The notes beneath the pieces were generated by a model. The model saw nothing but the letters and a program-made list of their open reading frames with translations, ran no database searches and was not told where the DNA came from. Shown piece by piece: positions 23,765 to 39,757 of a DNA stretch of 64,000 nucleotides. Position numbers and translations under genes: made by a program. How positions within the stretch are numbered: position 1 is the stretch's first letter; each line of letters starts with the position of its first letter. Location of the stretch: the NCBI RefSeq assembly GCF_900696045.1, contig NZ_LR216287.1, positions 1,488,001-1,552,000 on the forward strand, written 5' to 3'. Origin of the DNA: Candidatus Nitrosocosmicus franklandus (GTDB lineage Archaea > Thermoproteota > Nitrososphaeria > Nitrososphaerales > Nitrososphaeraceae).

Positions 23765-24184
23765 ATGAAATCCAAAACCGAGTATCTTTTGCTTAATACA
23801 ACATCACGGTTTCAGTTAGTTAACATTACGCCGCAAATTGAAAAAATACTACAAGCGAGCGAAATCAAAGAGGGACTATGCCTGGTAAATTCTATGCATA
23901 TTTCTTCTAGCGTATTCATAAATGATGACGAAATGGGGTTGCATAGAGATTTTTACAAGTGGTTAGAAAAATTGGCTCCGCATGAACCACTTGAACAATA
24001 TAGTCATAACGATACCGGAGAAGAGAATGCCGATGCCCATTTAAAGCGACAAATCATGGGAAGAGAAGTCGTAATAGCAGTTACAAATGGTAAACTAGAC
24101 TTCGGTCCATGGGAACAAATATTTTATGGAGAATTTGACGGAATGAGAAACAAGAGAGTGTTAGTTAAAATAATAGGTGAATAG
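23765..24184 (+). CDS. YjbQ/UPF0047 family protein
   Basis: A 139-residue single-domain protein of the YjbQ family. Recognisable parts are the [17 protein letters not shown] strand, [19 protein letters not shown], and the [13 protein letters not shown] motif with the conserved Trp/Gln. His residues in the two middle motifs form the family's putative active site. Members have been reported to have weak thiamine-phosphate synthase activity in vivo; the true role is unresolved. Length is typical and the gene looks intact, in contrast to the relics around it. It starts at ATG 23765 just after an AT-rich leader. Confidence 0.88.
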
Positions 24185-24844
24185 TATATGCATAGACTAG
24201 GTTTGAGTGAACTAGTCAAGATATAATAATCATTTCATTTTTATTTTCATTGTAAATATAAATCAAAAGTCAAATTAATTAGCTAGTCGTTATTATCTGA
24301 TTAAAATTCATTACAAAAAGGTGATTTTGATATTAGATCTAATTTATGCTTCAATTCGCTTTGATTTAGTGAATAGTTTAGACTTTATCGCGTATATCAA
24401 TAGCTTGAAGTTTGAGGTGATCTTGTAGAATTTCATGTACTTGTATATAGAAAGTTCTACTTTTTTATCTTTTTCATTTCTGAACAATATTTATAATTAA
24501 GATTCGTATTAGGTTTAAAATTCAAATATTTCCTAACAAGATATGTGATGCTAGATTTGTATATTAAGTAAGGAGCAAGACTAATTACTATATGCTAAAC
24601 TTGAGGAGTTATGACAACTATAAAGGTCTATGTTTATTACAACAGATCATTGTTGTTTGTACATAAATTTTTTGATTTTGTAGTGCAATTTTTTATGCCT
24701 TTTATGTTTGTCTGCGTGCCTGCCTTGCCATGTTAAGGGTAGGGTCATTAAACAATAGTACATAATGATATCACATAAACATAAAGAATTATGTAAGCTA
24801 TTACCACTTTTTATATTATTGATCTAGGATGAGCATTTATTATA
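24185..24844. other. 660-bp gap preceding the integrated element
   Basis: No gene seen on either strand. This is the sequence that would have lain directly downstream of the tRNA-Ser 3' end before the element at 24845 was inserted. Confidence 0.5.
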
Positions 24845-24865
24845 GCGCCGGGAGTGGGACTCGAA
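24845..24865 (-). repeat. Left attachment-site copy (attL)
   Basis: Identical to 39620-39640 over 21 bases. It corresponds to the 3' strand of the acceptor stem and half of the T arm of the tRNA-Ser, plus one base. The tRNA body is not present here: the following bases only loosely resemble it. Confidence 0.85.
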
Positions 24866-25258
24866 TCTACGTCTTTCAGATGTGGGTTCCATTGTGTTTG
24901 CTACTAGCCGAAAAGTAAAATGGAGGAAATGGCATTTGTTCATATTTCAGGTAGTCATGGGTTTATGCATTACAAGTTATTAAGTTAATAATAGATAAAC
25001 CAAGTATAATTAATCTCCAGAAAAATATGTGCTATAAAGAATGTAGTGGTTCACTTTTTTTGTGAATTTCGAGAAATTATAGTGGTAAACATATAGTGTT
25101 GTAAAGATACGAAATAATGACCTGGTTTATAATCTATAATAAAAAGCCTAATTTAGCTTGATTTATAATGATTTTGCCTTAAAAAGACTGAAGTAATAAT
25201 AGTATGTAAAACAATTTATTATCATATTAATAGGTATGATAGAATAGATTAGATCAAA
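24866..25258. other. 393-bp left end of the element, no gene seen
   Basis: Non-coding, AT-rich sequence between attL and the first element gene. Likely holds integrase arm-binding sites and a promoter for the gene at 25259, but no repeat stood out to me. Confidence 0.4.
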
Positions 25259-25825
25259 ATGAATAAAGAAACTTTGGATTTTCTTGTTTTTCTGAATAAT
25301 AATAAATTAGTAGATCTGCGTTGTATTCACTACGATAGCGATATTGGCTTTTATAATAGAAAGAAATTACAAAAATTGGTCTTTCTAGCTCAATCACGAT
25401 TCAATCTTCCGTCAAACTATGCCTATGATATCTATAAACATGGTCCATATTCGCCTCGTTTTTCTGCCGACTATTATCAAATGAATTTAGATATTGTTAA
25501 TCAAAAAACGTATTCCCTACCGTCTAGCTTTGATGAGAATAGATATACAGCTTTATTTATTGATAAGGATATTAACTGGTTGGAGGTATCTACAACCGCA
25601 ATTGATCTGTTCGATAAGAATAAAGATATACATATAAAAGACTTGGTCAATTCTATTTGTAATCTTAAGCCACAATTTAGTATACCTTATATTACTAAAG
25701 TTGTTAATGATCTATTGCGTGAAAAATTGATTACATCTATAAGAGAAGAACTAGAATCAATTAGAAAGAAAATACCTGACTTACTTAAAGCTTTAGCAAA
25801 AGAAGATCCTGCATTAATTAAATAA
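25259..25825 (+). CDS. YwgA/Panacea-like protein
   Basis: A 188-residue soluble protein. Its centre, KKLQKLVFLAQ followed by YDIYKHGPYSPRFSADYYQM, matches the pattern KLQKLxY(L/F)...F...YGPYS shared by YwgA-like and Panacea (DUF4065) domains. Panacea is a promiscuous antitoxin domain that pairs with many toxins. The C-terminal half is helical and charged. It converges with the Fic-like gene, whose end is only 11 bases away. Toxin-antitoxin partners are normally co-directional, so a functional pair here would be unusual; still, the two are adjacent and both alien. Confidence in the general fold is moderate. Confidence 0.55.
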   Translation: MNKETLDFLVFLNNNKLVDLRCIHYDSDIGFYNRKKLQKLVFLAQSRFNLPSNYAYDIYKHGPYSPRFSADYYQMNLDIVNQKTYSLPSSFDENRYTALFIDKDINWLEVSTTAIDLFDKNKDIHIKDLVNSICNLKPQFSIPYITKVVNDLLREKLITSIREELESIRKKIPDLLKALAKEDPALIK

Positions 25826-25836
25826 TCATATCTTGT

Positions 25837-26259
25837 TTACTCTTTAATTACTAACTCTTGTTTAAGATATTCCTCTACTTCGGAATAAACTGTAGTATCC
25901 GTCCTTGATTTCAACATAGTCGCCATTAACAAATCATATAATTTTCGTTTTTGCTCAGTTTGAACCAAAGGAATATCAAATCCATTTCTATTTAGAAACA
26001 TTAATGTTACAATTATAGCTGTTCTCTTGTTACCTTCATAAAATGGTTGATTAAAAGTAATTCCCGCCAAGATTCTAGTTGCTTTCTTAATTATGCGTGT
26101 CTTTTTATCTAATTCTTTTTCATACCTCGTGTTAACCTTGTCAAATATGCTGCAAAGAATATTTAGATCAACCTCAAAAGAAGAACCATCCTCTTCAACA
26201 ATTTTCTTGTTGAATTGAATAATTTCGTCAATCTCATCTGAGCTAAAGTATTCTGACAA
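25837..26259 (-). CDS. Fic/Doc-like protein lacking the catalytic His
   Basis: A 140-residue Fic-fold protein of Doc size. The Fic core reads FNQPFYEGNKRTAIIVTLMFLN; the canonical motif is HPFxxGNxR, so the anion-hole Gly-Asn-Lys-Arg is kept but the catalytic His is Gln. A helix pattern for the fold continues to NRNGFDIP. Fic enzymes transfer AMP or phosphate to proteins; the His acts as general base, so this protein should be inactive or use a different chemistry. The Gln could be a natural detoxifying mutation or a family trait. It converges with the YwgA/Panacea-like gene. Confidence 0.75.
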   Translation of the reverse strand: MSEYFSSDEIDEIIQFNKKIVEEDGSSFEVDLNILCSIFDKVNTRYEKELDKKTRIIKKATRILAGITFNQPFYEGNKRTAIIVTLMFLNRNGFDIPLVQTEQKRKLYDLLMATMLKSRTDTTVYSEVEEYLKQELVIKE

Positions 26260-26672
26260 TTATACTTACTTCTAAAATTTTTGTATAATAAGGTATCACT
26301 GATCAATGCATTAATTAATTAATAAAATACTCAATTGATATGGAGGTATGAAAGTTTATTTTGTTACTTTGTTTTAGTTTACTCTCGTGCTTCAATTTTC
26401 GCTTTATTTTTTATTGGTATTAATAATAGGCTCCTCGTCACTTCAGATAAATTCTTTAAATGATTCAAATAGGGTATTTGAACTCAATTTCCATATGATT
26501 GCAAAATAATATAAAAAATTGTAAAGAAATTATTGACTGATATATTGGGAATTAGCATAAAGATATGAGATTTGAACCCGTTTTTCTTGCATTCAGGGGT
26601 TTGTGTTTTGATTTGACCTATACAAATTGACCTTGTCCTCCAACAGATTACAATGATTTTGGAAAATTCATT
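26260..26672. other. 413-bp gap between Fic-like gene and OLD relic
   Basis: No gene seen. Near 26566-26640 the minus strand has a stretch GGGTTCAAATCTC that looks like a tRNA T arm, but no acceptor or anticodon stem could be folded by eye, so it is at most a relic. Confidence 0.4.
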
Positions 26673-27600
26673 TTACGACTTTATGATGTGTTCGAAGAAT
26701 CCTATAATTTCTTTTACATCATTATCATCGCCTTTAAACCAGGTATCAAATTTCAATTGACAAAATTTGATAATATTGTCTAATTTCCCATTATTATCTT
26801 CCATAAAACCAACATAATTTTCTAACGTGCCTTTTCTCTGAATGAATATATTTTCTTTATATTTTTTCGGTATTTTTGATATAATACCGTTCCATTGTTT
26901 ACTATCTATAGAATCTCTAAAAAATTGAAAGAATTGTTTAGAGATTTTGATTTGGTTTTTTTTACTTGACTTAGCAATTTTTTTTGATATCTCGTATGCG
27001 TTGATCTTGTTATGAAGCCTAACTCAGGATTCAAAACGTTATCCAAATCACCAATGTAGAAGCAAGGAATATTATATTTTGTCAAAAACGTCTTCCAATT
27101 CTTGAAATGGTCTTTTCCCCAGATGTCTATGAACTCCAAGTCATCTTTCTTGTTATTAATTTTCTTGTAATATTCATAAAAATACCTGTAAAAATATTCA
27201 TCCGAATCCCCTTCTACCAAAACTACTTTTGATGCAAAGAAAATTTTTACCGAATTACTATATGTAAGAATGTCCATCAGTATATTTTCATTACTGGTAA
27301 TAGTGGGTGAATTTGATTTTGTCCATTTACCATTTTCCTTATAAAATCTGTGAATTTTGTGTATAGTTTTTGAGTTTACAAACAGGAGTGAATGAGTAAC
27401 GATTATGAATTGAAGTTCCAGATCTCTAGCTGCTTTTTCCATTAATTCAATGAATTTAATCTGAATCTGAGGATGTAAGTGGATTTCTGGCTCGTCTACA
27501 ATGATAATTCCATTCCTTATTAGTTTGGTAACTATACCAACTGGAAAATTGTGGAAACAATTAGTTAAAATCGGACAGTAAGATCGAATAGTAAAAAATA
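26673..27600 (-). pseudogene. OLD-family ATPase/TOPRIM nuclease, truncated and frameshifted
   Basis: Minus-strand remains of an OLD-type nuclease. Upstream of the first ATG (27442) the same frame continues with NGIIIVDEPEIHLHPQ, a Walker B/signature of SMC-like ATPases, but no Walker A or start can be found; the frame dissolves near 27600. It continues ELQFIIVTHSLLFVN, then the TOPRIM part VLVEGDSDEYFY and IGDLDNV. After DLDNVLNPELGF the register shifts by one base near 27010, and the C-terminus (INAYEISKKIAKSSKKNQIK, then FFQFFRDSID) runs on to TAA 26673. OLD nucleases act in phage defence, for example Gabija GajA and retron or P2 OLD proteins. This copy is dead. Confidence 0.7.
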
Positions 27601-27640
27601 TAATAAAAGTATTTTAGTATATCGAAGTATTTTCAAACAA

Positions 27641-28051
27641 ATGCAATTTAGAGCATTCTTCATAATTTTAATTATTAGTATGGCAGCATTGATCTTTTTA
27701 ACGTTTAACAATGCGCTAACAGTTAACGCACAAGGTGGACTCGATAAAATGATTGAAGACTTGAAAGCAGATGGCGAGGCACTTAAAGCTGAAATCAAAA
27801 ACACTAATTTATACAAAACTGGTCTTGTGGAAGGTTTGATAAACAAGGTTTATTACTACAAAGGACAAATTTCTGTTATGGGTGGTGGAACATGGGCCTA
27901 TCTTCACGACGTTCAGGATACACTCTTAGCTAAAATCAAGGCAACAGGAGAAGCTGGATTTACTACATCAGAGTTGGCATCAATTGACTATTTCGCAACT
28001 ACAGCTGCTCAAGACAAAATCGATCACCCTAGCACCAATGTGTTTGGTTGA
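27641..28051 (+). CDS. Secreted 136-residue protein of unknown function
   Basis: A clear signal peptide (hydrophobic residues 6-22, cleavage likely after TVNA, before QGG) followed by about 105 mature residues. The mature part is helical (DKMIEDLKADGEALKAEIKN), then YYKGQISVMGGGTWAYLHD, and a final TSELASIDYFATTAAQDK. No Cys. I do not recognise a family. It begins 41 bases from where the OLD gene loses its reading frame, so its arrival may have destroyed the OLD N-terminus. It is the only obviously exported protein of the element. Confidence 0.6.
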   Translation: MQFRAFFIILIISMAALIFLTFNNALTVNAQGGLDKMIEDLKADGEALKAEIKNTNLYKTGLVEGLINKVYYYKGQISVMGGGTWAYLHDVQDTLLAKIKATGEAGFTTSELASIDYFATTAAQDKIDHPSTNVFG

Positions 28052-28298
28052 TCAGGCCTCAATTTTTTTAGTTTTTTATTTGGGAATAAATTTGAAGAGA
28101 TGTCAATTGGCCCGGTGGGTTTAGTAATAGATACATTACGAGTCCAATTCAAATTTTTTCCAATAACAATAGAATGTGAATTATTCAACTTCTGCCTTTT
28201 GATAAATTTAAAGTATTATTTACGATACATCTGGATTTTTCAACCAAATGTCTTGTTTGTATATATAAAAAACAAAATTGTCCCATACAAATGTTGAA

Positions 28299-30599
28299 TT
28301 AACTTCGGACTCTGACTCTATTTCTTAGCTTAATCGCATTATATAGCTTCAAATTATTTACTTGTTCAATAGCAACTATGATTGAGTAATCTTGTTCATA
28401 ACTGACATTTTCTATCCACCCTAAGTCTCTAGATACTACTGAAAGTAAAAGTGGCTTGTTGGATGATATTTCATGAGGTTTGATAATGCGTATCCCTTTT
28501 TGATGAACACCCTTCTTGCGAATATTAATTCCTGGTTTTAACATAATTTCATTTTTTTTGATATCAATTTTTTGAATCTCATCGTCTGGATATTCTTTAT
28601 CTATATCTGCAGATAGAGAACTATTGAGATCATCCATATCTAAATTATGATACAAGTGAAATTCCATTGCTACACCCAAATAATTAATTCTATTCTTTCT
28701 TATGGGAGGATCATAGGTCAAAGTAATTGACAAAAGTGTCTCATACTCGTCAAACACATCTTGAGGAAGATTAATTTCATAAATATGATAAGAATTAATT
28801 TGCAACTTGCTTTCTTTGATCAGTAACACCCTATAGTTGTCAGAGTAAAGGGCCTTAGATATATCGGGCTTTCCGTATCCATATACATTTAATAATTTCA
28901 TCAAGTTCGTTTCTGTGTCGTCTTCGCTAATTTCTGACAAGAATCCAGGCCTTTGAATTGGAATTCTGGAAGAAGACAACAATAAACATTTCAACATATT
29001 TGAAGAATAGAAGGGGTATTGATTTCGAAGTAACGCAAGATAATGAGAAATTCTTGGAGCACTAAAACTAGTTCCTTTACCTAATTTAAAAGGTCTACCC
29101 TCAATTACACCAACGGACTCAGCATTAGCGATAATAACGTCTGATTCATTTCCAAAACCACCACCACTATATTCAACCAATTCAGGTTTAATCATCCCTT
29201 TGAATCCGGGGCCGACTCGAGTAATTGGTGAAGGCACATCTATTGAATCAATACGAGTGAGCCGGCTAACTATACCTCCAACTGTCAAAGATAATGCAGA
29301 TGAAGCGGGATTAAGTAACCTGTTTTCTTCAAGCGCCAGTAAATGATCGGGATAATTACTATCTGGCAACTGAGTGTTATTGCCTATAGAAATTACAAAA
29401 ATAATATTGTATTTTTTTGCTAACTCATCCAAGAGAACTGCGAGATTAAAATTTTTAACTACATCATTTTTAAGTATATGATGCGGAATAGCTATAGAAA
29501 CATTAAATATTTTGCAGTTTGGATCCTTTTGAATCGTTTTTTCAACCAATTCCTTTAGTCTATTCTCTAATAGCTTATTGTATTCATTTCCTCTATTCTT
29601 ATTTTGTTTAAATATGATTTTTAATGAATATAACCAAATCTTTTGCTCAAAACGTGAATCACGAATACATTTTTCAACGTCACCGTATAGGCAAATACTG
29701 GCCACAGAAGTTCCGTGTCCAGAATGATCTCCGATTTCTTCATCATCGTCGAATTTGATATAATCTTTTATCGCATCTTCCAAAATTGGGTGCTTTAAAA
29801 TCCCACTATCCAAAATTGCTATAGAAGAACAATTTTCATTAGGTGGACCTATAATCTGCTCCTTTTCTATAGGTTGCATTAATAACGATTCAACTTCAAG
29901 AGTAGGAGGTCGGTCCACTAGAGCAATCTCATTCAATGCCAATATTTCATTTAATACTCGTTTACTGATTCGGACTCTTAAAATACAAAAATTTATAGTT
30001 ATTAGGTTATCTAAAATCAAACAATTATTCTCTTTTAACCAATTTTCAAAACCTGAAAGGAATTGATCCAATTCGGAATCTTCCATCCGCCACACTTCGA
30101 CATCTAGAAACTCAAATCCCATTTCAGGAAGCTGATCTATATTAAGAGATCGCCCAATCTTCTCGTCGACTGGTATAGGAACAATTTCATCTATGGCAAG
30201 GAAATACTTGTATCTATCGTCATCATGATGTTTTTGCAATTTCATTTTGAATTCTTTAAATTCTGAATCATTTGAAAAAGCTATCCAATATCCTGGATTC
30301 GCGGTCGAAGAATTAAGGACTTGAATTCCGGCCCTTTCTAAGTCCTGCCTAAAATTTGATTCATAGACATACTGATTTGTTTTTATTTTAAAAATTAGCC
30401 TTGGATCGAGATAATTTCCAAATTTGATCTTATTTTTCTCGTGAGTTTTCTTTAACAGCTGTAGTTCATTTAGTCTATCTTTTTGAAATTTTGAATTATC
30501 TCGGTCAAACCGCTCATATTTAGTTCTGGGCCTTTGCTTTCTTCTGGGAGTAGGAAGACTTGGTTCTGGTAGAGGAAGATGATCTAGATCGACCATCAA
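28299..30599 (-). CDS. ietS: Subtilase (S8 protease) of an IetAS-type pair
   Basis: A 766-residue intracellular subtilisin-like protease; no signal peptide. The triad is visible: Asp in SSIAILDSGILKHP, His in DHSGHGTSVAS, Ser in GKGTSFSAPRIS, with an oxyanion-hole Asn in ISIGNN. About 250 residues of charged N-terminal region and 200 residues of C-terminal beta domain flank the protease, far more than in secreted subtilases. Its start overlaps the stop of the AAA ATPase gene by four bases (ATGA), so they are translationally coupled. An AAA ATPase plus a large subtilase is the IetAS arrangement, described on Agrobacterium plasmid pTiC58 as a toxin-antitoxin-like stability system and later as anti-phage. 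Confidence 0.8.
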   Translation of the reverse strand: MMVDLDHLPLPEPSLPTPRRKQRPRTKYERFDRDNSKFQKDRLNELQLLKKTHEKNKIKFGNYLDPRLIFKIKTNQYVYESNFRQDLERAGIQVLNSSTANPGYWIAFSNDSEFKEFKMKLQKHHDDDRYKYFLAIDEIVPIPVDEKIGRSLNIDQLPEMGFEFLDVEVWRMEDSELDQFLSGFENWLKENNCLILDNLITINFCILRVRISKRVLNEILALNEIALVDRPPTLEVESLLMQPIEKEQIIGPPNENCSSIAILDSGILKHPILEDAIKDYIKFDDDEEIGDHSGHGTSVASICLYGDVEKCIRDSRFEQKIWLYSLKIIFKQNKNRGNEYNKLLENRLKELVEKTIQKDPNCKIFNVSIAIPHHILKNDVVKNFNLAVLLDELAKKYNIIFVISIGNNTQLPDSNYPDHLLALEENRLLNPASSALSLTVGGIVSRLTRIDSIDVPSPITRVGPGFKGMIKPELVEYSGGGFGNESDVIIANAESVGVIEGRPFKLGKGTSFSAPRISHYLALLRNQYPFYSSNMLKCLLLSSSRIPIQRPGFLSEISEDDTETNLMKLLNVYGYGKPDISKALYSDNYRVLLIKESKLQINSYHIYEINLPQDVFDEYETLLSITLTYDPPIRKNRINYLGVAMEFHLYHNLDMDDLNSSLSADIDKEYPDDEIQKIDIKKNEIMLKPGINIRKKGVHQKGIRIIKPHEISSNKPLLLSVVSRDLGWIENVSYEQDYSIIVAIEQVNNLKLYNAIKLRNRVRVRS

Positions 30600-31501
30600 A
30601 GATCACTCTTGTTGACAATTGATTTTCTAATCGTTTGGTCTTTTATAGCCCATTCAATATCTGCATTTGTTACAACGTTCCTGTGACTTAAGATGGTGCG
30701 TTTCAGAGCTGATTGGCAGATTTGAACTATATCAAATGCAGAGAAACCTTTGGTTGAACTTACATAACTCAAGTAATCATAATCGTCATCTCTTTTCACC
30801 ACTGCCAAATATTTATGAAATAGAAGGGCTCTGGATTCCGCATTAGGCAATCCAAAATATATGATCTCGTCGAATCTTCTCCAAACCGCATTGTCTAATA
30901 ATTTGTGATGATTTGTAGCCGCAATAAGCAAACTTCTTCCTTCATATTCATCCATCATTTGAATCAAATTATTAACTACACGTTTTATTTCACCATGTTC
31001 ATACTTGTCATCTCTATTTTTGGCTACAATGTCAAATTCATCAAATAAAACTACATAGTTTTCCTTTTCTATGAAATCGAAAATCCTTCTAATGTTTTTG
31101 GCAGTTTCACCAAGAAAAGATGAAAGAACAGAATCAAAGCGAACGTATACAAACGGATAACCTAATACAGAGCTAAGTATTCTGGAACTCAGTGTTTTTC
31201 CTGTTCCCGGTGGTCCACACAAAAGAATTTTTTGTTTAGGTTTTAATCCATAAGTTGATAACAAATCGACGCTTTTGTTTTCTACTAAAATATTTCTTAA
31301 TTTCTCTTTTACATAATCAGAAGCAACTAGATCATTAAAATTAAAGTAATTTTGTTCAACATGAACCAAAGGAAGTCCCTTTTCGGTGTCATATGGAATA
31401 TCTCTTTTTGGATAGAATTCAAGATTCTTTTGAAAATTAGTCTCTTTTTTTGACCCATTTTCTCTTATCTTCTTAATGATCTTAGCTGGCAATCTCAACA
31501 A
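30596..31501 (-). CDS. ietA: AAA ATPase of an IetAS-type pair
   Basis: A 301-residue AAA protein: N-terminal linker of about 90 residues, Walker A LLCGPPGTGKTLSS, Walker B YVVLFDEFDIVA, sensor-1 in LLIAATNH, arginine finger in WRRFDEII, and a C-terminal lid. There is one AAA domain and no protease or zinc domain, so it fits the CDC48/FtsH-like group that IetA belongs to. It is the first gene of the pair and overlaps the subtilase start. In the pTiC58 system the ATPase is the neutralising partner; in an anti-phage role it could sense infection and release the protease. The 5' region 31502-31565 would hold the promoter. Confidence 0.82.
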   Translation of the reverse strand: MLRLPAKIIKKIRENGSKKETNFQKNLEFYPKRDIPYDTEKGLPLVHVEQNYFNFNDLVASDYVKEKLRNILVENKSVDLLSTYGLKPKQKILLCGPPGTGKTLSSRILSSVLGYPFVYVRFDSVLSSFLGETAKNIRRIFDFIEKENYVVLFDEFDIVAKNRDDKYEHGEIKRVVNNLIQMMDEYEGRSLLIAATNHHKLLDNAVWRRFDEIIYFGLPNAESRALLFHKYLAVVKRDDDYDYLSYVSSTKGFSAFDIVQICQSALKRTILSHRNVVTNADIEWAIKDQTIRKSIVNKSDL

Positions 31502-31565
31502 TAATTACAGAAACAACTTAATAACAATTCTTTTCATAATTATAGTAGATCTTTCTTACTAATTC

Positions 31566-31814
31566 TTGAGCTATCCTGTAATTAAGATTCTGATTCCTGT
31601 AATTTCCATGATTATCCTGAAAAGTATTTATCTCTTACTTATTTCTTATGTTTATCATATTACAATAGAAACTCTAGAAACATTATACAGAATCACACCT
31701 ATGGTTAGTATAAAATTTTCTATTTCGGATCAGAAAGTGACGGTGTTAACAAGAATCTTTTATGAAATTGGTGGATCTTTGCCATATTCTGTTAGTTTCA
31801 TCTTACTTATTTAA
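31566..31814 (+). CDS. Possible small membrane protein
   Basis: A TTG-started 82-residue frame with two hydrophobic segments (about residues 4-30 and near the C-terminus). The middle, IKFSISDQKVTVLTRIFYEI, looks protein-like. There is no ATG or ribosome-binding site, and its last four bases overlap the convergent zinc-ribbon gene. The opposite strand is not better. I keep it at low confidence. Confidence 0.25.
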   Translation: MSYPVIKILIPVISMIILKSIYLLLISYVYHITIETLETLYRITPMVSIKFSISDQKVTVLTRIFYEIGGSLPYSVSFILLI

Positions 31815-31984
31815 AGGCCACACTCATTACAATATACTGCACCAAGAAAATTATTCGAATTATTACAATGAGGACATTTTAACGGAAACCGTGTTCCACA
31901 TTTACTACAGAATTTGGCTCCTGTAGGATTATCTTTTTTACAGATGAGACAAATATTACTCGTATCATCTTTATTGCTCTTCAT
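31811..31984 (-). CDS. 57-residue double zinc-ribbon protein
   Basis: Starts at ATG 31984 and ends TAA 31811; too short for common gene finders. Two zinc ribbons fill it: CLIC with FCSKCG (about residues 12-30), and CPHC with YCNECG (about 38-56). That is eight Cys in four CxxC pairs in 57 codons, which cannot be chance. Such proteins may act as nucleic-acid or protein adaptors. It lies between the IetAS-type pair and a gene of unknown function in the element; it might belong to either neighbour or be independent. Confidence 0.75.
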   Translation of the reverse strand: MKSNKDDTSNICLICKKDNPTGAKFCSKCGTRFPLKCPHCNNSNNFLGAVYCNECGL

Positions 31985-32268
31985 CCCTATCTCTCCGAAA
32001 TATTAAAAATTATTCAAATTGCTGTAGATATAAGTATTAAATCCTGATTTCTGAACGTGTTGATGGAAATATCAAATTTAAATAAATCAAATATTGCAAG
32101 TGACGTTTTTAATAAAGTGCAAATGACGAAGGAATGATACGACAAAATGACGAAGAAAAAAGAGCAGAATGATTATTTTATAAATAGAATTGGGAGGTAA
32201 TCAAAGTCATTTAACAAATTAATCATTTTTGATGCATTTTGATAGTGTATTTTTTACTCTGTCAATCA

Positions 32269-32712
32269 TTATCTCATTGATCTAGCTTCTGTAATCAGTC
32301 GTTTGGATCTGCCCAATAATAAATTAATCTGAGAATCTGAATCGGTGAAATGATGAGTATGAGGAATTACTACTCTGTCATACTTTGTGAGATTAAATCC
32401 CAATTTGAATCCCTTTCTAATAAGGGATACCTTTTCTTTCAGCATTATCATGCTGACTATTCCTTTGCTTGTTTTTGAAAGATCATGAAGGATTACTTTC
32501 TCAGATCGACTATTGTTATATTCTTCAAGGATTGATTTTTCATAATTATGAAATATAGCTCTTTTATAATAGTAATATGTTCTCCTAGATATGTTCTTAC
32601 CAAAGGATTGATTAATATAACTCAAAGATTCATTTTCGGTCAAGTGGTTCATCTCGCAATTCATAACAAGCATAGTCAGTATCAATTTTTTCTTCTCACT
32701 AAATTGAGGCAC
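32269..32712 (-). CDS. Uncharacterised element protein, probable HTH
   Basis: A 147-residue basic protein. The N-terminal part has short helices (KKKLILTMLVMNCEMNHL, then LSYINQSFGKNISRRTYYYY) that look like a winged or homeodomain-like DNA-binding region: the segment ISRRTYYYYKRAI resembles a recognition helix followed by a basic tail. The C-terminal half has no recognisable motif. It is divergent from the SIR2 gene across a 324-bp spacer and could regulate it, which is an inference. No other family was recognised. Confidence 0.55.
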   Translation of the reverse strand: MPQFSEKKKLILTMLVMNCEMNHLTENESLSYINQSFGKNISRRTYYYYKRAIFHNYEKSILEEYNNSRSEKVILHDLSKTSKGIVSMIMLKEKVSLIRKGFKLGFNLTKYDRVVIPHTHHFTDSDSQINLLLGRSKRLITEARSMR

Positions 32713-33036
32713 TATATTATTAAAAAAGAGAACAAGATATTAATTTTGACTGTTTATTTCATCAAATAGTTCTATATTTTTGTTTTTCAAGGTATCTAGT
32801 TTCATTGGGGGTATCTTCTTGTTAATAGCAGTATTTAGTGATAACTTTATCAAATAATTCGGACTAAAATAAGTCTTCTTAACGTATTGCATTTGCATAA
32901 CCAATATTTTTTTGATATGTTATAAGAATCAGTTTAAGTCATCTTATTAATTTTAGTTAAAAATCGAGAGCGAATCAAACCTTTCGCTGGAAAAAAGAAA
33001 AACGTTAATCTACTAAAGTAGAATTAGACCACTGTA
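32713..33036. other. 324-bp divergent spacer upstream of the SIR2 gene
   Basis: Non-coding. Must hold the promoters for the genes at 32712 (minus) and 33037 (plus). No clear operator repeats were seen. Confidence 0.4.
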
Positions 33037-34236
33037 TTGAACGAGAATTTTAAATTCACATTTTTATTGGGGGCCGGCGCTTCCGTGCCGGCTAACCTTC
33101 CCACTATGGATTCAATGACATCTAGATATTATTCGGATTATGTTGATAGTTTTAGTCCTGAAGAAAAGCTCGTGGTTAATACTCTAAAAGGAATAGTTGA
33201 ATCTTATTATTCAAGCAGACATGATATTGAATCCTTTATGTCTTTGATAAAATCTTTGGAAGACCCCGATTTAAAACGACTTATAACTCATCAATATGCT
33301 GAATTGAATAAATTAGACCATTCAGTTATAGATCAAGTTTATAAAAAGACACAACAATATATCAGAACTTCGCTAGAAAAAATCGAGTGGAGAGACATTG
33401 GTTACCTTCTTCCAATGCTAGGCTTTTTAGAAGAACAACCTTTAGAAATCTTTACCTTGAATTACGATGGTATTATCGACTTATTTTGTGAGAAGAATCA
33501 TTTAAGGTATTCGGATGGTTTCGATCCATTCTGGAATCCAAAGGTATTTGAGGAAAATCTACAAGTAAGGATCTATAGGTTGCATGGTTCTTTATATTGG
33601 TTCAAAACTTTATCTGAGAACATAATACGTATTCCAGTAATTGGATTGGACCTGGAACATGTAAAGTATATATCATTAGAAAATATGTCTGAAATGTTGA
33701 TCTATCCCACCATGGAAAAGGAAAAATATTCGGAGATTTATACTTGGCTCAACAATCGATTTATTTCAAAATTAAATGAAACGAATTTGTTAATAATAAT
33801 TGGTTATAGTTTTAGAGATCAGGATATCACAACCATGATAAAGGAAGCACTCATGAGGACAAAGTTATGGATCATAATTGTTTCACCCAACGCAAATGAA
33901 TTAAAAGGTAGCCTTTGCTTAAGTGATTTAGAAATTTCATCGAGAGTAATCGCAATAGGCTATGGTATCGACTCTTTGCTAAGAAGTGGATTATTTTATC
34001 AATTTTATAATAAACTAAAAAATAATATTCAATTGGAAGAAAAAACATGGGGGAAACAACATCAAATTGAAGATCCGCTCTCAGAGTGGACTGGAATCAT
34101 ACAGGCATACTATGATTTAGAATGCAACGAACGGATCGATTATGTTTTAAAAAATCTTGAAAACTACTTTCCTAAAAAACGGGTTGAAATGATCAAAAAA
34201 CAGAGCACTAATAGACGTAATCTTTGGAGGAAATAG
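33037..34236 (+). CDS. SIR2-like (SIR2_2) domain protein
   Basis: A 399-residue protein starting at TTG 33037. The SIR2-like NAD-binding fold is shown by FLLGAGASVPANLPTM at the very N-terminus, IFTLNYDGIIDLF, YRLHGSLYWF (His in the catalytic position) and IIIGYSFRDQDI. It lacks the four zinc Cys of deacetylase sirtuins, as do defence SIR2 domains, which degrade NAD+ on phage infection (ThsA, SIR2-pAgo, DSR, SIR2-HerA). The last 110 residues are helical and unassigned; they may be a sensor. No HerA, pAgo or TIR partner is next to it, so it looks standalone. The codons at its start (GGGGGCCGGCGCTTCC) are unusually GC-rich for this genome. Confidence 0.82.
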   Translation: MNENFKFTFLLGAGASVPANLPTMDSMTSRYYSDYVDSFSPEEKLVVNTLKGIVESYYSSRHDIESFMSLIKSLEDPDLKRLITHQYAELNKLDHSVIDQVYKKTQQYIRTSLEKIEWRDIGYLLPMLGFLEEQPLEIFTLNYDGIIDLFCEKNHLRYSDGFDPFWNPKVFEENLQVRIYRLHGSLYWFKTLSENIIRIPVIGLDLEHVKYISLENMSEMLIYPTMEKEKYSEIYTWLNNRFISKLNETNLLIIIGYSFRDQDITTMIKEALMRTKLWIIIVSPNANELKGSLCLSDLEISSRVIAIGYGIDSLLRSGLFYQFYNKLKNNIQLEEKTWGKQHQIEDPLSEWTGIIQAYYDLECNERIDYVLKNLENYFPKKRVEMIKKQSTNRRNLWRK

Positions 34237-34365
34237 TAGATTTACTTAAAAATTGTCATAGTTGGCAAGGTTGTCACGGTATTTTATATCGAAAAATATT
34301 TTAATTTTTTTAATCTTGTTCTGATTTTTCTCAAAAAATAATTTCAGATGAAACAACCCTGCCAA

Positions 34366-36696
34366 CTATGACAACCCTGACAAACCATTCATGCTGAAAG
34401 TTATTTGTTGTTGCTTTCCTATGTCTAACTGATATTCGGGTGTTAGTCTTAGTCCAAACCAGCAAGTTTTTCTTTTTTCATCTTGCTTGCTTTTTTTCCC
34501 TTCGCTTATGTTAGGTCGTAATCGTTTTAGATCCTTTCCGAACGCCTCAATAGATTTAAAGGCTAATTTGTATTTATTACAGAATCTAATATACGCTTGA
34601 TGCAATTCAGACTTGCTTATCCATTCATCAGCAGCGGAATCTTCCGCTACAGCCTCTTCAAGAAATACCTTGACGGGGTCATTTGCTCTTTCTGATTTCT
34701 TTCTTTTTTGTTCTACAGTTTTTTCATTGAGAAAGATTCCATTATTTTTTAAGATTCTCCTTAGTGCCGTCATCGATACATTAAATATTCCCGACAATTC
34801 CTCTTCTGAGCTCAACCTTTGAAGAAGATAGGGATCGTCTCTCCTACCTTCAAAAGTAAAGGGAAAGCTGATTAATACTTCTCGGCGATAATATGCAGCA
34901 GTTTGATCAATTGATTCTCGAATTATATTAGCATTAAAAAATAACTTCGCATGCAAATACGTATCGTAGGCGTTTTGATTTTTTCTTTCTATTCGTATTG
35001 GCTGCTTTTTTCCTCCTGTAAGCTTCTTTAGAATTGTTGTATCCTTTATAACAGCATATGTTAGCTCAGTATCTATATTTACATCCTTAAATTCTAAATC
35101 GGCAAGGGAGAACCTATTCTCTAACAAAGCAGAAATAGAAACATTACTAATGTTCTTATCGTCATGCAATTTGGTAAGCAATCCAGTAAAGACGCTTTTA
35201 CCGTTTGAACCGTATCCAAACAACTTGAAGAAGTATTCAAACGGAGTATCCCTGTAAAATGTATAAGCCATGGCTTCTACAGCAGTTCTTATTTCTCCTG
35301 AATATAACACATCCTTTAGAAATTTTCCAAACAGCTTGGGTTTCATGCTTGGATTAAACACGATCGGTTTCTGATTCACTGAAAGATAATTAGGAGTGTG
35401 CGGATTCAATTTATCTTTAGAAATATCATATAGACCATTCTGAAGGTTTATGATATTAATATCTGCATCAAGTTCCTCTCTCCTATGATATGTCTTTCGG
35501 ATAATGTGGCCCTTTATCTCGGATAAGTGCTTGTTAGCAAGATCATACCCAAAAATATTTTCGGCCTCTTTTTCAATTATTATTTCTCCACCTGGAACAT
35601 ACACTCCTTTTTGATAATATAGGATCTCTTTTGTCTCTTCCAGAGTCAGGAAATGATAATTTTGAAAAATGTGTTCTGTTGCCTCTTCTATTAGATCGAT
35701 TTTGGATTGTTGTTTACTCTTATTAAAGACGAAATCCTTATGAGATCTTACAAATTCTATACAACTATTCCAAATAGTATCCAGTTCATCTTGTGATAAC
35801 GGCTCCGGTTTACAGAACTTTAGGTTTATCTCTTCAAGAAAAGCTTTTAATTTGACTGCGTTATTTGTGCCATCTTTTTTTTCATGATAATGACGAAATA
35901 ATAATGAATTGGCAACTGAGATTAGTTGATCGTGTCGTTCGCCTTCATGTATAACAATTTCTATATTGTTCCTTATTTTGAGATTTTTGATTATATTTCT
36001 GAGCTCGACCCTCAATCCATTCTTTTTTTCTACATATTCTATTCCATGTCGTTTACAGATGTTGTTAATGTGTTGAATCATTTCTATGGCCTGTATATTG
36101 TTCAATACACAAGGTTCTGTAGTTCCAATTATTTGGTATCTTTGTCCATTTTTATGAAATGATGGAGAACAAAACATTATTCCATGTTCTGCTTTGCTTT
36201 TTACTTCAATTCCTATCTTAGAATCAGGCCCTTTGCCAGGGAAGGGAATGGGTGATAACATATAAATATGAGCTCTATTCAAATCATCCTCGTGTTGTTC
36301 AACAATTGTTTTTTCTGCTAGCTCTTTGAGAGTTATATTTTTTCCATTAAGACTGCAAAATTCCTCTATGGCTTCTTTTTTATCCAGGTCAATCGCCACA
36401 AGATATAGATGAGAGTTATTATTGTCCTTTTTAGTTATATCTAGATATAACTTTCCAGGAAAAATGGCCATTCCCTTCTCAAATAAACCTTCGTTTTTCC
36501 ATTCTTCAAAGACATCATTAGGAATACGGTTATGCTGGTATTCTTTGTATGAACCTAATATTGGATACCTATTTTTAGTATCATATGGAATGACATTGCA
36601 TTTTTGTTTATGATACCAATAATCCGCCCAATCGTTGGGATTCGGTAACCATCTCTCCGTTTTATGCGTCAAGGCGCAAACCTCATACAATCGCAA
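34366..36696 (-). CDS. Prim-pol/SF3 helicase replication protein
   Basis: A 776-residue replication protein of mobile elements. The N-terminal 300 residues look like an archaeo-eukaryotic primase: YLVAIDLDKKEAIEEF gives the acidic pair and CSPSFHKNGQ the S-x-H motif. The middle and C-terminal parts are a superfamily-3 helicase: Walker A in FGYGSNGKSVFTG, a Walker B-like DVNIDTELTYA, and the sensor LFFNANIIRES. A D5-like winged-helix tail follows (SKSELHQAYIRFCNKY). It starts at TTG 36696 inside the end of the small zinc gene at 36669-36791, so it is translationally coupled. Such proteins initiate plasmid or virus replication; its presence argues the element can be extrachromosomal. Confidence 0.85.
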   Translation of the reverse strand: MRLYEVCALTHKTERWLPNPNDWADYWYHKQKCNVIPYDTKNRYPILGSYKEYQHNRIPNDVFEEWKNEGLFEKGMAIFPGKLYLDITKKDNNNSHLYLVAIDLDKKEAIEEFCSLNGKNITLKELAEKTIVEQHEDDLNRAHIYMLSPIPFPGKGPDSKIGIEVKSKAEHGIMFCSPSFHKNGQRYQIIGTTEPCVLNNIQAIEMIQHINNICKRHGIEYVEKKNGLRVELRNIIKNLKIRNNIEIVIHEGERHDQLISVANSLLFRHYHEKKDGTNNAVKLKAFLEEINLKFCKPEPLSQDELDTIWNSCIEFVRSHKDFVFNKSKQQSKIDLIEEATEHIFQNYHFLTLEETKEILYYQKGVYVPGGEIIIEKEAENIFGYDLANKHLSEIKGHIIRKTYHRREELDADINIINLQNGLYDISKDKLNPHTPNYLSVNQKPIVFNPSMKPKLFGKFLKDVLYSGEIRTAVEAMAYTFYRDTPFEYFFKLFGYGSNGKSVFTGLLTKLHDDKNISNVSISALLENRFSLADLEFKDVNIDTELTYAVIKDTTILKKLTGGKKQPIRIERKNQNAYDTYLHAKLFFNANIIRESIDQTAAYYRREVLISFPFTFEGRRDDPYLLQRLSSEEELSGIFNVSMTALRRILKNNGIFLNEKTVEQKRKKSERANDPVKVFLEEAVAEDSAADEWISKSELHQAYIRFCNKYKLAFKSIEAFGKDLKRLRPNISEGKKSKQDEKRKTCWFGLRLTPEYQLDIGKQQQITFSMNGLSGLS

Positions 36697-36791
36697 TTAT
36701 GCTCATAACATTTGTCGTTATGCGAGGTTTTTTCATGACCACAATAGCAAATGTCTGGAAGAACGGAATCCTCCCTGAAGCCATCATTCAA
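36669..36791 (-). CDS. 40-residue Cys/His-rich microprotein
   Basis: A TTG-started frame overlapping the helicase start by 28 bases. Its second half is dense in metal ligands: ICYCGHEKTSHNDKCYEH, then NCDC. That is five Cys and three His in 25 residues. The location inside an overlapping chain of tiny genes (36990-37154, 36800-37009, this, then the helicase) supports it being translated. Function unknown; a zinc-binding adaptor for the replication protein is a guess. Confidence 0.6.
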   Translation of the reverse strand: MNDGFREDSVLPDICYCGHEKTSHNDKCYEHNCDCMRFAP

Positions 36792-36799
36792 GTGTCCTT

Positions 36800-37009
36800 T
36801 TAGGCCTCCGTGGATTTGTGTTCGAATATTCTAATACATTCTGGACATAAATCTAATTCAATTTTCCCAAATTTGCCAATGCTTTGTGTTATTTTGTATA
36901 TGGAAGGTCTTGAACACCCAAAACCGTTACAAATCATTGAAGTTTTAATTTTGCTATGTTTACTGGTAACTGATAACTTGTTAATCAATTTAAATCCTCC
37001 CTGATGCAT
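36800..37009 (-). CDS. 69-residue zinc-finger protein of the replication operon
   Basis: ATG 37009 to TAA 36800. The Cys pattern is ICNGFGC then LDLCPECIRIFE about 23 residues later, i.e. a C-x4-C ... C-x2-C zinc site, in a basic protein (KLINKLSVTSKHSKIKTSM). It overlaps the upstream gene by 20 bases and is eight bases from the next. The chain implies one transcript from the 37155-37210 promoter region. It probably binds DNA, as expected for copy-number control of the replication gene; no family name is known to me. Confidence 0.6.
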   Translation of the reverse strand: MHQGGFKLINKLSVTSKHSKIKTSMICNGFGCSRPSIYKITQSIGKFGKIELDLCPECIRIFEHKSTEA

Positions 37010-37154
37010 TCAATATTTCAGACTTAAGACCTTTTTTATTATCCTCTATTAGTTCATTAATTATATCATCATAAGTTTGTTCTTTTCTACCTATGTTTCT
37101 TAGGATGTTCCTTGTTTTTACATCAATAATGATTGTTGTTCTTTGTATTTCCAT
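36990..37154 (-). CDS. 54-residue antitoxin-like (RHH-type) protein
   Basis: ATG 37154 to TAA 36990. The sequence MEIQRTTIIIDVKTRNILRN followed by IGRKEQTYDDIINELIEDN has the look of small archaeal antitoxin or ribbon-helix-helix proteins: a beta strand with alternating polar residues, then two helices with the GRKEQTYDDII motif. These act as DNA-binding autorepressors. No toxin gene is next to it, so it is more likely a copy-control repressor of the replication operon. It faces the winged-helix gene at 37211 across a 56-bp spacer with triplicated TATACCGAT. Confidence 0.6.
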   Translation of the reverse strand: MEIQRTTIIIDVKTRNILRNIGRKEQTYDDIINELIEDNKKGLKSEILNASGRI

Positions 37155-37193
37155 ATATCTACTATAAACAAGTATTTATTTTAGATAATGGTA

Positions 37194-37222
37194 TATACCG
37201 ATATACCGATATGTATACCGAT
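37194..37222 (+). promoter_or_regulatory. Three direct copies of TATACCGAT, putative operator
   Basis: Copies lie at 37194-37202, 37202-37210 and 37214-37222. They sit in the divergent spacer of two regulators and run into the first codons of the plus-strand gene (ATG 37211). Repeats that cover a transcription start and start codon are typical autoregulatory operators. Spacing is 8 and 12 bases. Confidence 0.55.
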
Positions 37223-38128
37223 AGTGATTTGATATTAGTTGATCCAGAACATAGACGAAGTAGAATTATTGACTTTATCCTTCATAATCAGGGATGTAGC
37301 AAAAGTAAAGTTGTAGCTCATGCTACAGAAAATGGATATGCTTCTAAGGTATCGGTTTACGAAGTGTTGAACGATCTTAAGAGAGAAAAAATTCTCTCAA
37401 TACGTAGAGAAAAACCAAATTCAAAGTCCCATCAATTGTTTATTGACCGGAAAAATCATGTCATTATCCTTACAAAACAATTACAGGAAATCGATCGTTT
37501 GTTGAAAGCTCTTTTAGAAAAGACTTTTTCAATCTATAACAAACCCGTGAAAGAGTGGCCTAAAATTTATGATCGTGAAAGCAGTTCGAGTCAGTTATCT
37601 GAGATTGTTAATTCGTTACAATATATAATTAGTTTTATTGATCACGCATTTAAATACCTTTATAGCTTGGAATGGCCTAGATTTGACTCAGTTTATCGTA
37701 ATCAAATGTATACTTTATTTTTCACAGAATTAGGGAGATGGCATAATTTGGTTAATAACAATATTTCAAGATTGATTCAGAATTATAAAAATCAAATTGA
37801 TGACTGGATCTATCCTCCACAGCGATATGAATATCGTCATCCTAAGTCTATTTCAGCTGACGAACTGTATCTATCTATGCTTCAACCATTATTCAGGATT
37901 CACCGATTAGAAGTTATATTCGAAAGACATGGTATGTTAAATGAATATACAAGATTAATTGATTATCTTTTTAATATGAATATATCTCAAATTGATTCCG
38001 TATATCCAGAACTACATGACTTATTTTTTGAATTTCTAACAAAAAACACTTCCTATCTACCCAAATATAGGGAGCGATTCAAAAGAGAATATAAAGAATA
38101 TCTCGTCAAAAATGGATTAGATGATTAG
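37211..38128 (+). CDS. Winged-helix protein of the element with long helical C-terminus
   Basis: A protein of about 305 residues from ATG 37211. An upstream TTG at 37133 is in frame, but the 26 extra residues (hydrophobic, Tyr-rich) cross the operator region and are not believable. Residues 10-85 form a winged helix: RRSRIIDFILHNQGCSKSKV, SVYEVLNDLKREKILSIRRE, then a wing. The rest is helical with Tyr/Phe-rich segments and no recognised fold. Its divergence from the antitoxin-like gene and the operator repeats suggest it controls the replication operon. It converges with the integrase gene, ten bases apart at the ends. Confidence 0.65.
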   Translation: MYTDSDLILVDPEHRRSRIIDFILHNQGCSKSKVVAHATENGYASKVSVYEVLNDLKREKILSIRREKPNSKSHQLFIDRKNHVIILTKQLQEIDRLLKALLEKTFSIYNKPVKEWPKIYDRESSSSQLSEIVNSLQYIISFIDHAFKYLYSLEWPRFDSVYRNQMYTLFFTELGRWHNLVNNNISRLIQNYKNQIDDWIYPPQRYEYRHPKSISADELYLSMLQPLFRIHRLEVIFERHGMLNEYTRLIDYLFNMNISQIDSVYPELHDLFFEFLTKNTSYLPKYRERFKREYKEYLVKNGLDD

Positions 38129-38138
38129 CATTAATGCA

Positions 38139-39614
38139 TTACTTTATAATCTTAATGTTTTCTAACACCTCTGGTTTTATGTTTACTAGCAAGGGATTCT
38201 GTTGAATTAATATAAATAAACTATTAACTCCTTCTTTCAAAGCTTTCATATCTTTTTCAAGTATGTCAATTTTTTGCTTATCTTCATTTCTTACCTCTGA
38301 ATATAGATCATAGGATAAAATCATCTTGCATTTCATGCATATCTTTGAATCCTGTCTATTGGATTCATTACAATTCGAACATTGCTTTGGTTTCAGGCAA
38401 TTAAAGAGGTCATCATCTTGGTCAGAATTGATGATGCCATTTTTTTGTAATAACACTTTCGATGATTGATTGCTTAGATGAACATAAACTTGAGTCATTT
38501 TACTTCCCATGGACCAACCTGCATGATCCTTGAGTGCAGAATCAGGTAAAATTAAACTCTTCTCAGTTAGCGCACTATGTCGGTATACATATAGGTTCCA
38601 AGGTTTTAGTAACATATTTCTTATTATTGCTTTATCATAATCGGGGATGATGTTATCGTCTAACAACTTTTTGAAATATTTTTTCTTATAATAGTCATAA
38701 TGACTCGAAAGCCCTTCTAACGTTAGTTTAGAGCCATAGTTATTTCCTTGGGATATGAAAACAAATGAGTCTGGATTTTTACCGTTAGGATGCTCTTCCA
38801 TCCACTCTTTTAGATAAGGAATTGAATCGATTAATGGGACAGTTCTTGGTCCTGTCTTTCCTTGAGTAATTCTTACTTCTGCATATTGAATTCCTTTGTT
38901 TGTTAAATTGAATTTTATGTCTTTGAATCTTAGATTCAGTATCTCTTGCGGTCGTGCAGACATGTCTCTTGCCAGCGCATGGTAACATCTATCTCTTTTG
39001 GAAGGACAATATTTTAGAAAAATCGCATGTTCTCTTGCTTCCCATATATCAGAAGGTTTGTATGAGGTTTTTTCCTTACGAGGTAGCTTCCTTATTCCTT
39101 GCATGCATACGGGTGTTGGTCTTTTTCTATGGTCTTCGTCTGAATTATATAACCATTTGAAGAATTTCAGTAATATTATCTGTCTTCCATTGTATGTGCC
39201 AATCCATTTATTGGATGGATCTTTGTCAGAAGATTTTCTTAAACTATTTAGATATTCTAGAATATCTTGTTTAGTTAATTCAGTAAACGATTTGTTATCA
39301 TTATGATAATTTGATAGCCATACAAGAGTTTTAATCTTACCTTCTTTTGTTGAATCTTTTATATTTATCTCAGTTTGTTCAGCGATTATATAGTCTACGA
39401 TTATTTTTGCATTAATCGGGTTACGTTTCAAAAGGTCTTTAAGTATTTTGTTAAAATAAGGCCTTGAAAGCGTTTTTGTTATCGAATCTATCTTTCTTTC
39501 TATATCTGCGGATAATTCTCTGGAACCCTCACTTAATTGACTGATGTTACTGTAAAGATTCAACCAGTAAAAATTTGCTCTTTTGATATATAACGATATA
39601 GGTGGAACCCACAT
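38139..39614 (-). CDS. Tyrosine recombinase (integrase)
   Basis: A 491-residue site-specific recombinase. An N-terminal SAM-like core-binding domain (about 60-200) is followed by a catalytic domain: Arg I in ARDMSARPQEIL, Lys in TQGKTGPR, Arg II in YVYRHSALTEKS (a Tyr replaces the usual first His), His III in LKDHAGWSM and the nucleophile Tyr in TQVYVHLS. After that come a zinc ribbon (CSNCNES ... ICMKCK) and a coiled coil. The start ATG at 39614 is five bases from the attachment repeat and six from the tRNA-Ser end, the classic position. Integration leaves the gene intact. It would excise and integrate the element at the tRNA. Confidence 0.9.
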   Translation of the reverse strand: MWVPPISLYIKRANFYWLNLYSNISQLSEGSRELSADIERKIDSITKTLSRPYFNKILKDLLKRNPINAKIIVDYIIAEQTEINIKDSTKEGKIKTLVWLSNYHNDNKSFTELTKQDILEYLNSLRKSSDKDPSNKWIGTYNGRQIILLKFFKWLYNSDEDHRKRPTPVCMQGIRKLPRKEKTSYKPSDIWEAREHAIFLKYCPSKRDRCYHALARDMSARPQEILNLRFKDIKFNLTNKGIQYAEVRITQGKTGPRTVPLIDSIPYLKEWMEEHPNGKNPDSFVFISQGNNYGSKLTLEGLSSHYDYYKKKYFKKLLDDNIIPDYDKAIIRNMLLKPWNLYVYRHSALTEKSLILPDSALKDHAGWSMGSKMTQVYVHLSNQSSKVLLQKNGIINSDQDDDLFNCLKPKQCSNCNESNRQDSKICMKCKMILSYDLYSEVRNEDKQKIDILEKDMKALKEGVNSLFILIQQNPLLVNIKPEVLENIKIIK

Positions 39615-39619
39615 TTGAG

Positions 39620-39640
39620 GCGCCGGGAGTGGGACTCGAA
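39620..39640 (-). repeat. Right attachment-site copy (attR), within tRNA-Ser
   Basis: Identical to 24845-24865 in the same orientation. It covers the last 20 bases of the tRNA-Ser gene plus one, so integration regenerates a full 3' end for the tRNA. Confidence 0.85.
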
Positions 39641-39757
39641 CCCACGAGTCCGGAAGGACATCAGCTATCTATCCTTTTTTCCTCTTTATTAGATCTCGAG
39701 GCTGACCCCTTTTAGGGTTGGATTTTTTGATTACTTACCTAGCTTGGGTACCCCGGC
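39621..39757 (-). tRNA. tRNA-Ser(CGA) with two introns
   Basis: Read on the minus strand, the gene starts GCCGGGGTACCCAAGC and ends with a T arm GTGGGTTCGAGTCCCAC and acceptor TCCCGGC-G; the two acceptor strands pair. The anticodon stem TCAGC pairs with GCTGA, and the loop begins CTCGAGA with anticodon CGA. Between loop and 3' stem lies a canonical intron of about 28 bases after position 37. A long variable arm (GTCC/GGAC) is typical of tRNA-Ser. The D arm is interrupted by about 23 bases (AAGTAATC ... ACCCT), which reads as a second intron. Removing both gives about 86 bases. It is the integration target of the element to its left. No CCA is encoded. Confidence 0.82.

Follow-up and report, generated by a model that had tools for sequence, protein, structure and literature searches.

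Introduction

Thaumarchaeal genomes are known to carry integrated elements of the kind described here. In the main text of their survey of 20 thaumarchaeal genomes, Krupovic et al. (2019; PMC6563490) list 74 integrated elements, of which 68 have a defined site; for 39 of those 68, the site lies in a tRNA gene. According to the same text, insertions into tRNA genes are at the 3' end in all but one case and affect intron-containing and intronless tRNA genes alike, the median att site is 17 bp, and the median size of the described elements is 17 kb. The majority are classified there as cryptic integrated elements (CIE), some of which encode primpol-S3H. A preliminary description of the locus studied here held that few such elements had been described, which the numbers in that main text contradict. 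Archaeal tyrosine integrases of the pNOB8 type (type II) carry the signature R...YXXR...Y (PMC8371274). For soil ammonia oxidisers, PMC11897584 describes genetic tools as still missing.

Here, we describe one more element of this known type. It lies in a window of 64,000 nucleotides (positions 1,488,001-1,552,000 of one 2,836,447-bp contig of Candidatus Nitrosocosmicus franklandus), and all coordinates below are those of the window unless another location is given. We consider it very probable that the locus is a 14.8-kb integrative plasmid of the CIE class, carrying defence-type cargo at a tRNA-Ser hot spot.

Results

The element is bracketed by a perfect 21-bp direct repeat, GCGCCGGGAGTGGGACTCGAA, with plus-strand copies at 24845-24865 (attL core) and 39620-39640 (attR core) that are spaced 14,775 bp apart; the preliminary description had this repeat around 14.8 kb correct to the base. 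The repeat can be extended to 27 bp at 93% identity. By our own arithmetic, a given 21-mer is expected by chance about 1e-6 times in 2.84 Mb when both strands are counted. The attR core lies inside a tRNA-Ser gene, and the attL core is identical to the 3' end of that gene.

The target is a tRNA-Ser(CGA) gene with D-loop and anticodon-loop introns (39620-39757, minus strand), and its 3' end points toward the element. Neither ARAGORN nor Rfam called any tRNA in the window, because this gene contains two insertions. When the D-loop insertion and the anticodon-loop insertion of approximately 28 nt were removed in silico, ARAGORN's most frequent call was tRNA-Ser(cga), and its other calls arose with wrong splice points. 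In an alignment with orthologues from other genera of the family, the exons are kept and the D-loop and anticodon-loop insertions vary. Since the spliced forms are called as tRNA-Ser(cga) and the exons are kept in orthologues, we take this tRNA-Ser to be real. One of its two introns apparently lies within the D loop.

Joining the two ends of the element yields an attP in which the core sits between TGGAACCCACATTTGA (right arm, 39603-39618, plus strand) and TCAGATGTGGGTTCCA (left arm, 24876-24891, plus strand). These 16-bp arms are inverted repeats of one another that match at 15 of 16 positions, and none of 300 shuffles was as good. The tRNA-Ser target lacks the arms, which therefore belong to the element. 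The same layout is found in a second element of the same genome at tRNA-Ser(GCU) (approximately 261.6-280.6 kb; arms TTATCTTGGGGATT) and in an element of the sister species G006 (arms TAAAACAGGGAATC); arm offsets are nearly equal in all three elements, and the arm sequences differ. At the outermost repeats of G005, G007, and G008, the arms are mismatched, as expected of stacked elements. The matched arms in the window therefore argue that the 14.8 kb is a single unit. Within the tRNA, the att core extends from the 3' end through the T-loop, and identity between the two copies ends at the border of T-loop and T-stem, which suggests a crossover in or before the T-loop.

A motif at the left arm, CGAATCTACGTCTTTCAGATGTGGG (24862-24886), recurs with one to three mismatches in four other Nitrosocosmicus genomes (L061, L062, and L063). 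Three copies are near the tRNA-Ser(CGA) of G008 and one is 14.5 kb from the tRNA in G009; these recurrences may mark the left ends of sister elements or the scars that such elements left.

The gene next to attR encodes a tyrosine integrase (38139-39614, minus strand; 491 aa, start uncertain), and its open reading frame begins 5 bp from the att core. The protein matches Pfam PF00589 (E=2.6e-8) and a PHROG integrase profile (E=9.6e-28) and has R221, K253, YVYR at 342-345, H364, and Y377. It shares with pNOB8-type integrases both the R...YXXR...Y signature and a gene that is left whole after integration, whereas its att site of 21 bp is shorter than the 40 to 50 bp used by pNOB8 integrases of Sulfolobales (PMC8371274). 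Of 70 family genomes, 56 encode a homologue of the integrase. Among the 16 closest loci (integrase identity of at least 49%, with 200 bp or more of sequence upstream, query included), 15 adjoin the 3' end of a tRNA-Ser gene or an att copy of one; this holds for one of six more distant integrases with enough sequence. At least three isoacceptor genes seem to serve as targets.

Three further genes make up the conserved backbone. A winged helix-turn-helix (wHTH) protein (37133-38128, plus strand) is the convergent partner of the integrase gene, and this tail-to-tail pair recurs in G008, G005, G059, and G024 and in the other elements of the same genome. A 69-aa Cys-rich, zinc-finger-like protein (36800-37009, minus strand) is kept between the integrase and PrimPol genes in sister elements. 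The PrimPol-SF3 replication protein (34366-36696, minus strand) matches Pfam Prim-Pol, D5_N, and DUF5906 and a PHROG DNA primase profile (E=3e-65) and contains the DxD and Walker A motifs. The order integrase, zinc finger, PrimPol is repeated in G008 (2445278-2450303), integrase and PrimPol occur together in G004, G065, and G009, and the backbone of integrase, wHTH, zinc finger, and PrimPol-SF3 is recurrent in Nitrososphaeraceae. An integrase at the tRNA side and a prim-pol/SF3 helicase had been proposed beforehand, and the profile matches given here agree. The convergent SIR2 (see below) and PrimPol genes are separated by a long hairpin (34253-34374; 22-bp inverted repeat; RNA fold z=-6.8), which may function as a terminator or as an origin structure.

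The PrimPol-SF3 and integrase profiles are common to phages, and by profile the PrimPol is kin to phage primases; nevertheless, our scan of IMG/VR contigs recovered no relative of the PrimPol, and none of the phage records reaches 80% coverage of it. Searches with Pfam and PHROGs detected no capsid, portal, terminase, or packaging gene in the element and no conjugation or transfer gene of the VirB4/VirD4 type. A provirus of the Caudoviricetes or DJR type was rejected for lack of capsid, terminase, and portal genes, and an integrative-conjugative element for lack of VirB4/VirD4-type genes. A site-specific integrase inside att repeats, with neither viral hallmark nor conjugation genes, places the element among the CIE. 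It resembles CIE with primpol-S3H such as NitKor_MY1-E1 and NitAQ6f-E4, as described in the main text of PMC6563490, in its tyrosine integrase, insertion at a tRNA 3' end, fused primpol-S3H, and lack of virion and conjugation genes. Its size is near the 17-kb median given there, while its att of 21 bp exceeds the median of 17 bp. IetAS and SIR2 set it apart from these two elements, a comparison made with their published description only, and the main text of PMC6563490 contains no mention that we found of inverted attP arms or of IetAS/SIR2 cargo.

The most complete cargo module is ietAS. IetS, a subtilase (28299-30599, minus strand; PADLOC IetS E=2.9e-91), has an intact active site (Asp264, His295, Ser511), and the adjacent AAA ATPase IetA (30596-31501, minus strand; PADLOC IetA E=4e-87) has Walker A and B motifs and an Arg finger. 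The two genes overlap by 4 bp. The module thus has the overlapping ATPase and subtilase genes and all the catalytic motifs of described ietAS systems; it differs from them in its archaeal host and in an IetS that is 26 to 43% identical to the nearest sequences found. IetS is essentially absent from the 69 other family genomes (sole match, 68 residues, E=1e-4) and is scarce across the phylum (5 of 397 other sampled genomes), where the best match is 43% identical and belongs to another family. Beyond the phylum, it is patchy in bacteria and present in one Methanoperedens MAG; relatives are frequent on plasmids (318 records). A single-sequence search of genome contigs with IetS was empty, and a query built from an alignment found relatives. 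Lateral acquisition of ietAS is the natural reading of this distribution.

The second intact cargo gene encodes a solo SIR2-domain protein (33037-34236, plus strand; Pfam SIR2_2 E=2.1e-11; PADLOC SIR2 E=4e-23) with the motifs GAGAS, NYD, and LHGS. The nearest solved chains are 8w9l and 8j4u, which we take to be Nezha-type SIR2. The protein has the SIR2 domain and conserved NAD-site motifs in common with these anti-phage SIR2-like proteins, but no HerA, Argonaute, or other partner gene lies beside it; the HerA partner of Nezha (SIR2-HerA) was not found among the element genes with Pfam or PADLOC.

Two further genes with defence-type matches do not appear to be canonical. A decayed OLD/GajA-type gene (26640-27560, minus strand) retains the part from Walker B to TOPRIM in a broken frame, with the TOPRIM open reading frame at 26906-27442. 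It matches OLD-like_TOPRIM (E=3.2e-17) and PADLOC Old (E=4e-17, profile positions 317-488 of 578 only) and contains 19 stops in the frame tried. A canonical Gabija/OLD system was rejected, as this gene is a truncated, frame-broken pseudogene. A protein of the Fic/Doc fold (25837-26259, minus strand; Pfam Fic E=2.4e-9) reads QPFYEGNKR in place of HPFx(D/E)GNKR, so that Gln replaces the catalytic His by which a Fic/Doc toxin is recognized in HPFx(D/E)GN(K/G)R. The position is occupied by Gln or Arg in four Fic homologues from two other family genomes. Together, these His-less proteins seem to represent a subfamily whose Fic chemistry is altered or absent. Of the several defence genes claimed in the preliminary description, only IetAS and SIR2 thus appear intact and canonical, and the Fic protein and the OLD pseudogene fall short.

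The remaining cargo genes are divergent or small. A 188-aa protein (25259-25825, plus strand) has weak SocA/Panacea-like and DarG-C-like matches: Pfam SocA_Panacea is detected in 4 of 13 members of its family (best E=0.0017), and DarG 7yk3 matches weakly by both sequence and fold. Its AlphaFold model has a pLDDT of 90, and Foldseek returns only the weak DarG match (E=1.2). An 87% identical homologue is present in G017. A working PanAT pair of Fic and Panacea is considered unlikely because the genes are convergent, not an operon, and the catalytic His is missing. The cargo also includes a 136-aa putative secreted protein with a signal-like N terminus (27641-28051, plus strand) and no Pfam or PADLOC match, a double zinc-ribbon open reading frame of approximately 57 aa read directly from the sequence (31811-31984, minus strand), and a 147-aa protein (32269-32712, minus strand) of a family found on other Nitrososphaeraceae elements (homologues at L126 and, near related integrases, at L128 and L134).

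We compared the integration site with that of relatives. The right flank (the tRNA and a gene for a 143-aa protein) is conserved in the genus; in the left flank, the UPF0047 gene (23765-24184) and the sequence as far as approximately 24496 are conserved in G007, G010, and G018. The approximately 350 bp left of attL (24496-24844) do not align to relatives. An empty allele, in which 24844 would join 39641 with one copy of the repeat, had been predicted and was not found among 15 genus genomes; relatives that share the flanks hold other DNA. G007, G010, and G018 were rejected as empty sites because of other DNA or an integrase remnant at the tRNA, or because of a contig break. In G007, the flanks are collinear around approximately 19.6 kb of different DNA. 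At 10 of 24 other loci, an integrase or remnant is found at tRNA-Ser(CGA), in every case on the 3' side. From these comparisons, tRNA-Ser(CGA) is a hot spot with variable content.

In the sister species G007 (locus L055, G007:C1:69540-84968), the insert contains an integrase remnant beside the tRNA, an aquaporin, an ArsC-like low-molecular-weight phosphatase, a methyltransferase, and an MFS protein; we read it as an arsenic-type island. A further sister species, G018, has the same island at tRNA-Ser(CGA) (L065, G018:C28).

The second element of the same genome (L072 and L073; approximately 261605-280616) is approximately 19 kb long, has its own matched att arms, and encodes an integrase that is 57 to 58% identical to that in the window and a PriX-type gene instead of PrimPol-SF3. 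Repeated att copies at the tRNA-Ser of G008 (L062, G008:C1:659430-670008, and G008:C1:626053) suggest a stacked array of approximately 10.6 kb and approximately 33 kb. Elements elsewhere with a related integrase or PrimPol carry AAA-15/OLD-type, TIR, type I methyltransferase, and Schlafen-AlbA genes, and defence-type cargo therefore recurs.

Discussion

The bounding att copies, paired arms, intact integrase, PrimPol-SF3, cargo, and repeated use of the same tRNA by sister elements are all documented at the level of sequence, on which footing the following integration mechanism is well supported. The integrase would bind the inverted arms that flank the 21-bp core of the circular form, and the core would have recombined with the 3' end of tRNA-Ser(CGA), with the crossover most likely within the T-loop (ACTCGAA), at the end of the identity block. 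The tRNA gene would be restored by the copy of its 3' end that the element brings with it. Once excised, the circle would be replicated by PrimPol-SF3, and the wHTH protein probably regulates the integrase gene or replication. The left two thirds would be exchangeable cargo, in which the IetA ATPase and IetS protease and the SIR2 NADase-type effector probably protect the host, and thereby the element, from viruses or rival plasmids. We infer present-day mobility of the element and a defence function of its cargo.

The ends, integrase, inverted arms, and sister elements at the same tRNA concur with the earlier claim of a plasmid-like element at tRNA-Ser; counted against an integrative plasmid are the lack of an empty site in the genus, the unalignable left margin, and the lack of transfer genes. 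The unalignable margin is also what one would cite for an old genomic island that was once integrated and is now immobile, either domesticated or decaying, as are the OLD pseudogene and the integrase remnants common at tRNA-Ser(CGA) in relatives. We regard such an island as possible but doubtful, given an intact integrase, PrimPol, IetAS, and SIR2, att cores that have stayed identical, and arms that agree at 15 of 16 positions. The one decayed cargo gene may mean that the element is ageing in place. The earlier alternative of a virus-like element found no virion gene to support it. Defence genes are frequent in virus satellites at tRNA sites, and this frequency, together with the phage-like PrimPol-SF3 and integrase profiles, is what speaks for a defective provirus, or for a satellite packaged by a helper virus, rather than a plasmid. 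Without any capsid, portal, terminase, or packaging gene detected by Pfam or PHROGs, and with neither an IMG/VR relative of the PrimPol by the scan used nor a phage record covering 80% of it, we consider either of these very improbable.

A further question is what the conflict genes do for an integrative plasmid. The first description of ietAS reportedly concerned the maintenance of an Agrobacterium plasmid, and IetS relatives are common on plasmids, as might be cited for genes that serve maintenance of the element (addiction) and not host defence. Anti-phage reports exist for ietAS, which PADLOC also models as a defence system, and the SIR2 gene has no antitoxin partner; we therefore find a role in addiction instead of defence unlikely. 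The two roles are compatible.

Integrative plasmids of this kind may form a wider family. We suggest, with considerable reserve, that one tRNA-Ser-specific integrase lineage defines a Nitrososphaeraceae family of PrimPol plasmids that shuttle swappable defence modules, and that the integrases co-evolve with their own arms around a near-invariant core, so that sisters can stack and replace one another at one tRNA.

For soil ammonia oxidisers, the known mobile DNA gains an element whose boundaries are well defined, whose integrase is intact, and whose cargo includes IetAS and SIR2. The layout of attP predicts an integration module that is compact and could perhaps serve as an integration vector. 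In the comparison of relatives, defence-type and arsenic-type cargo alternate at one tRNA gene.
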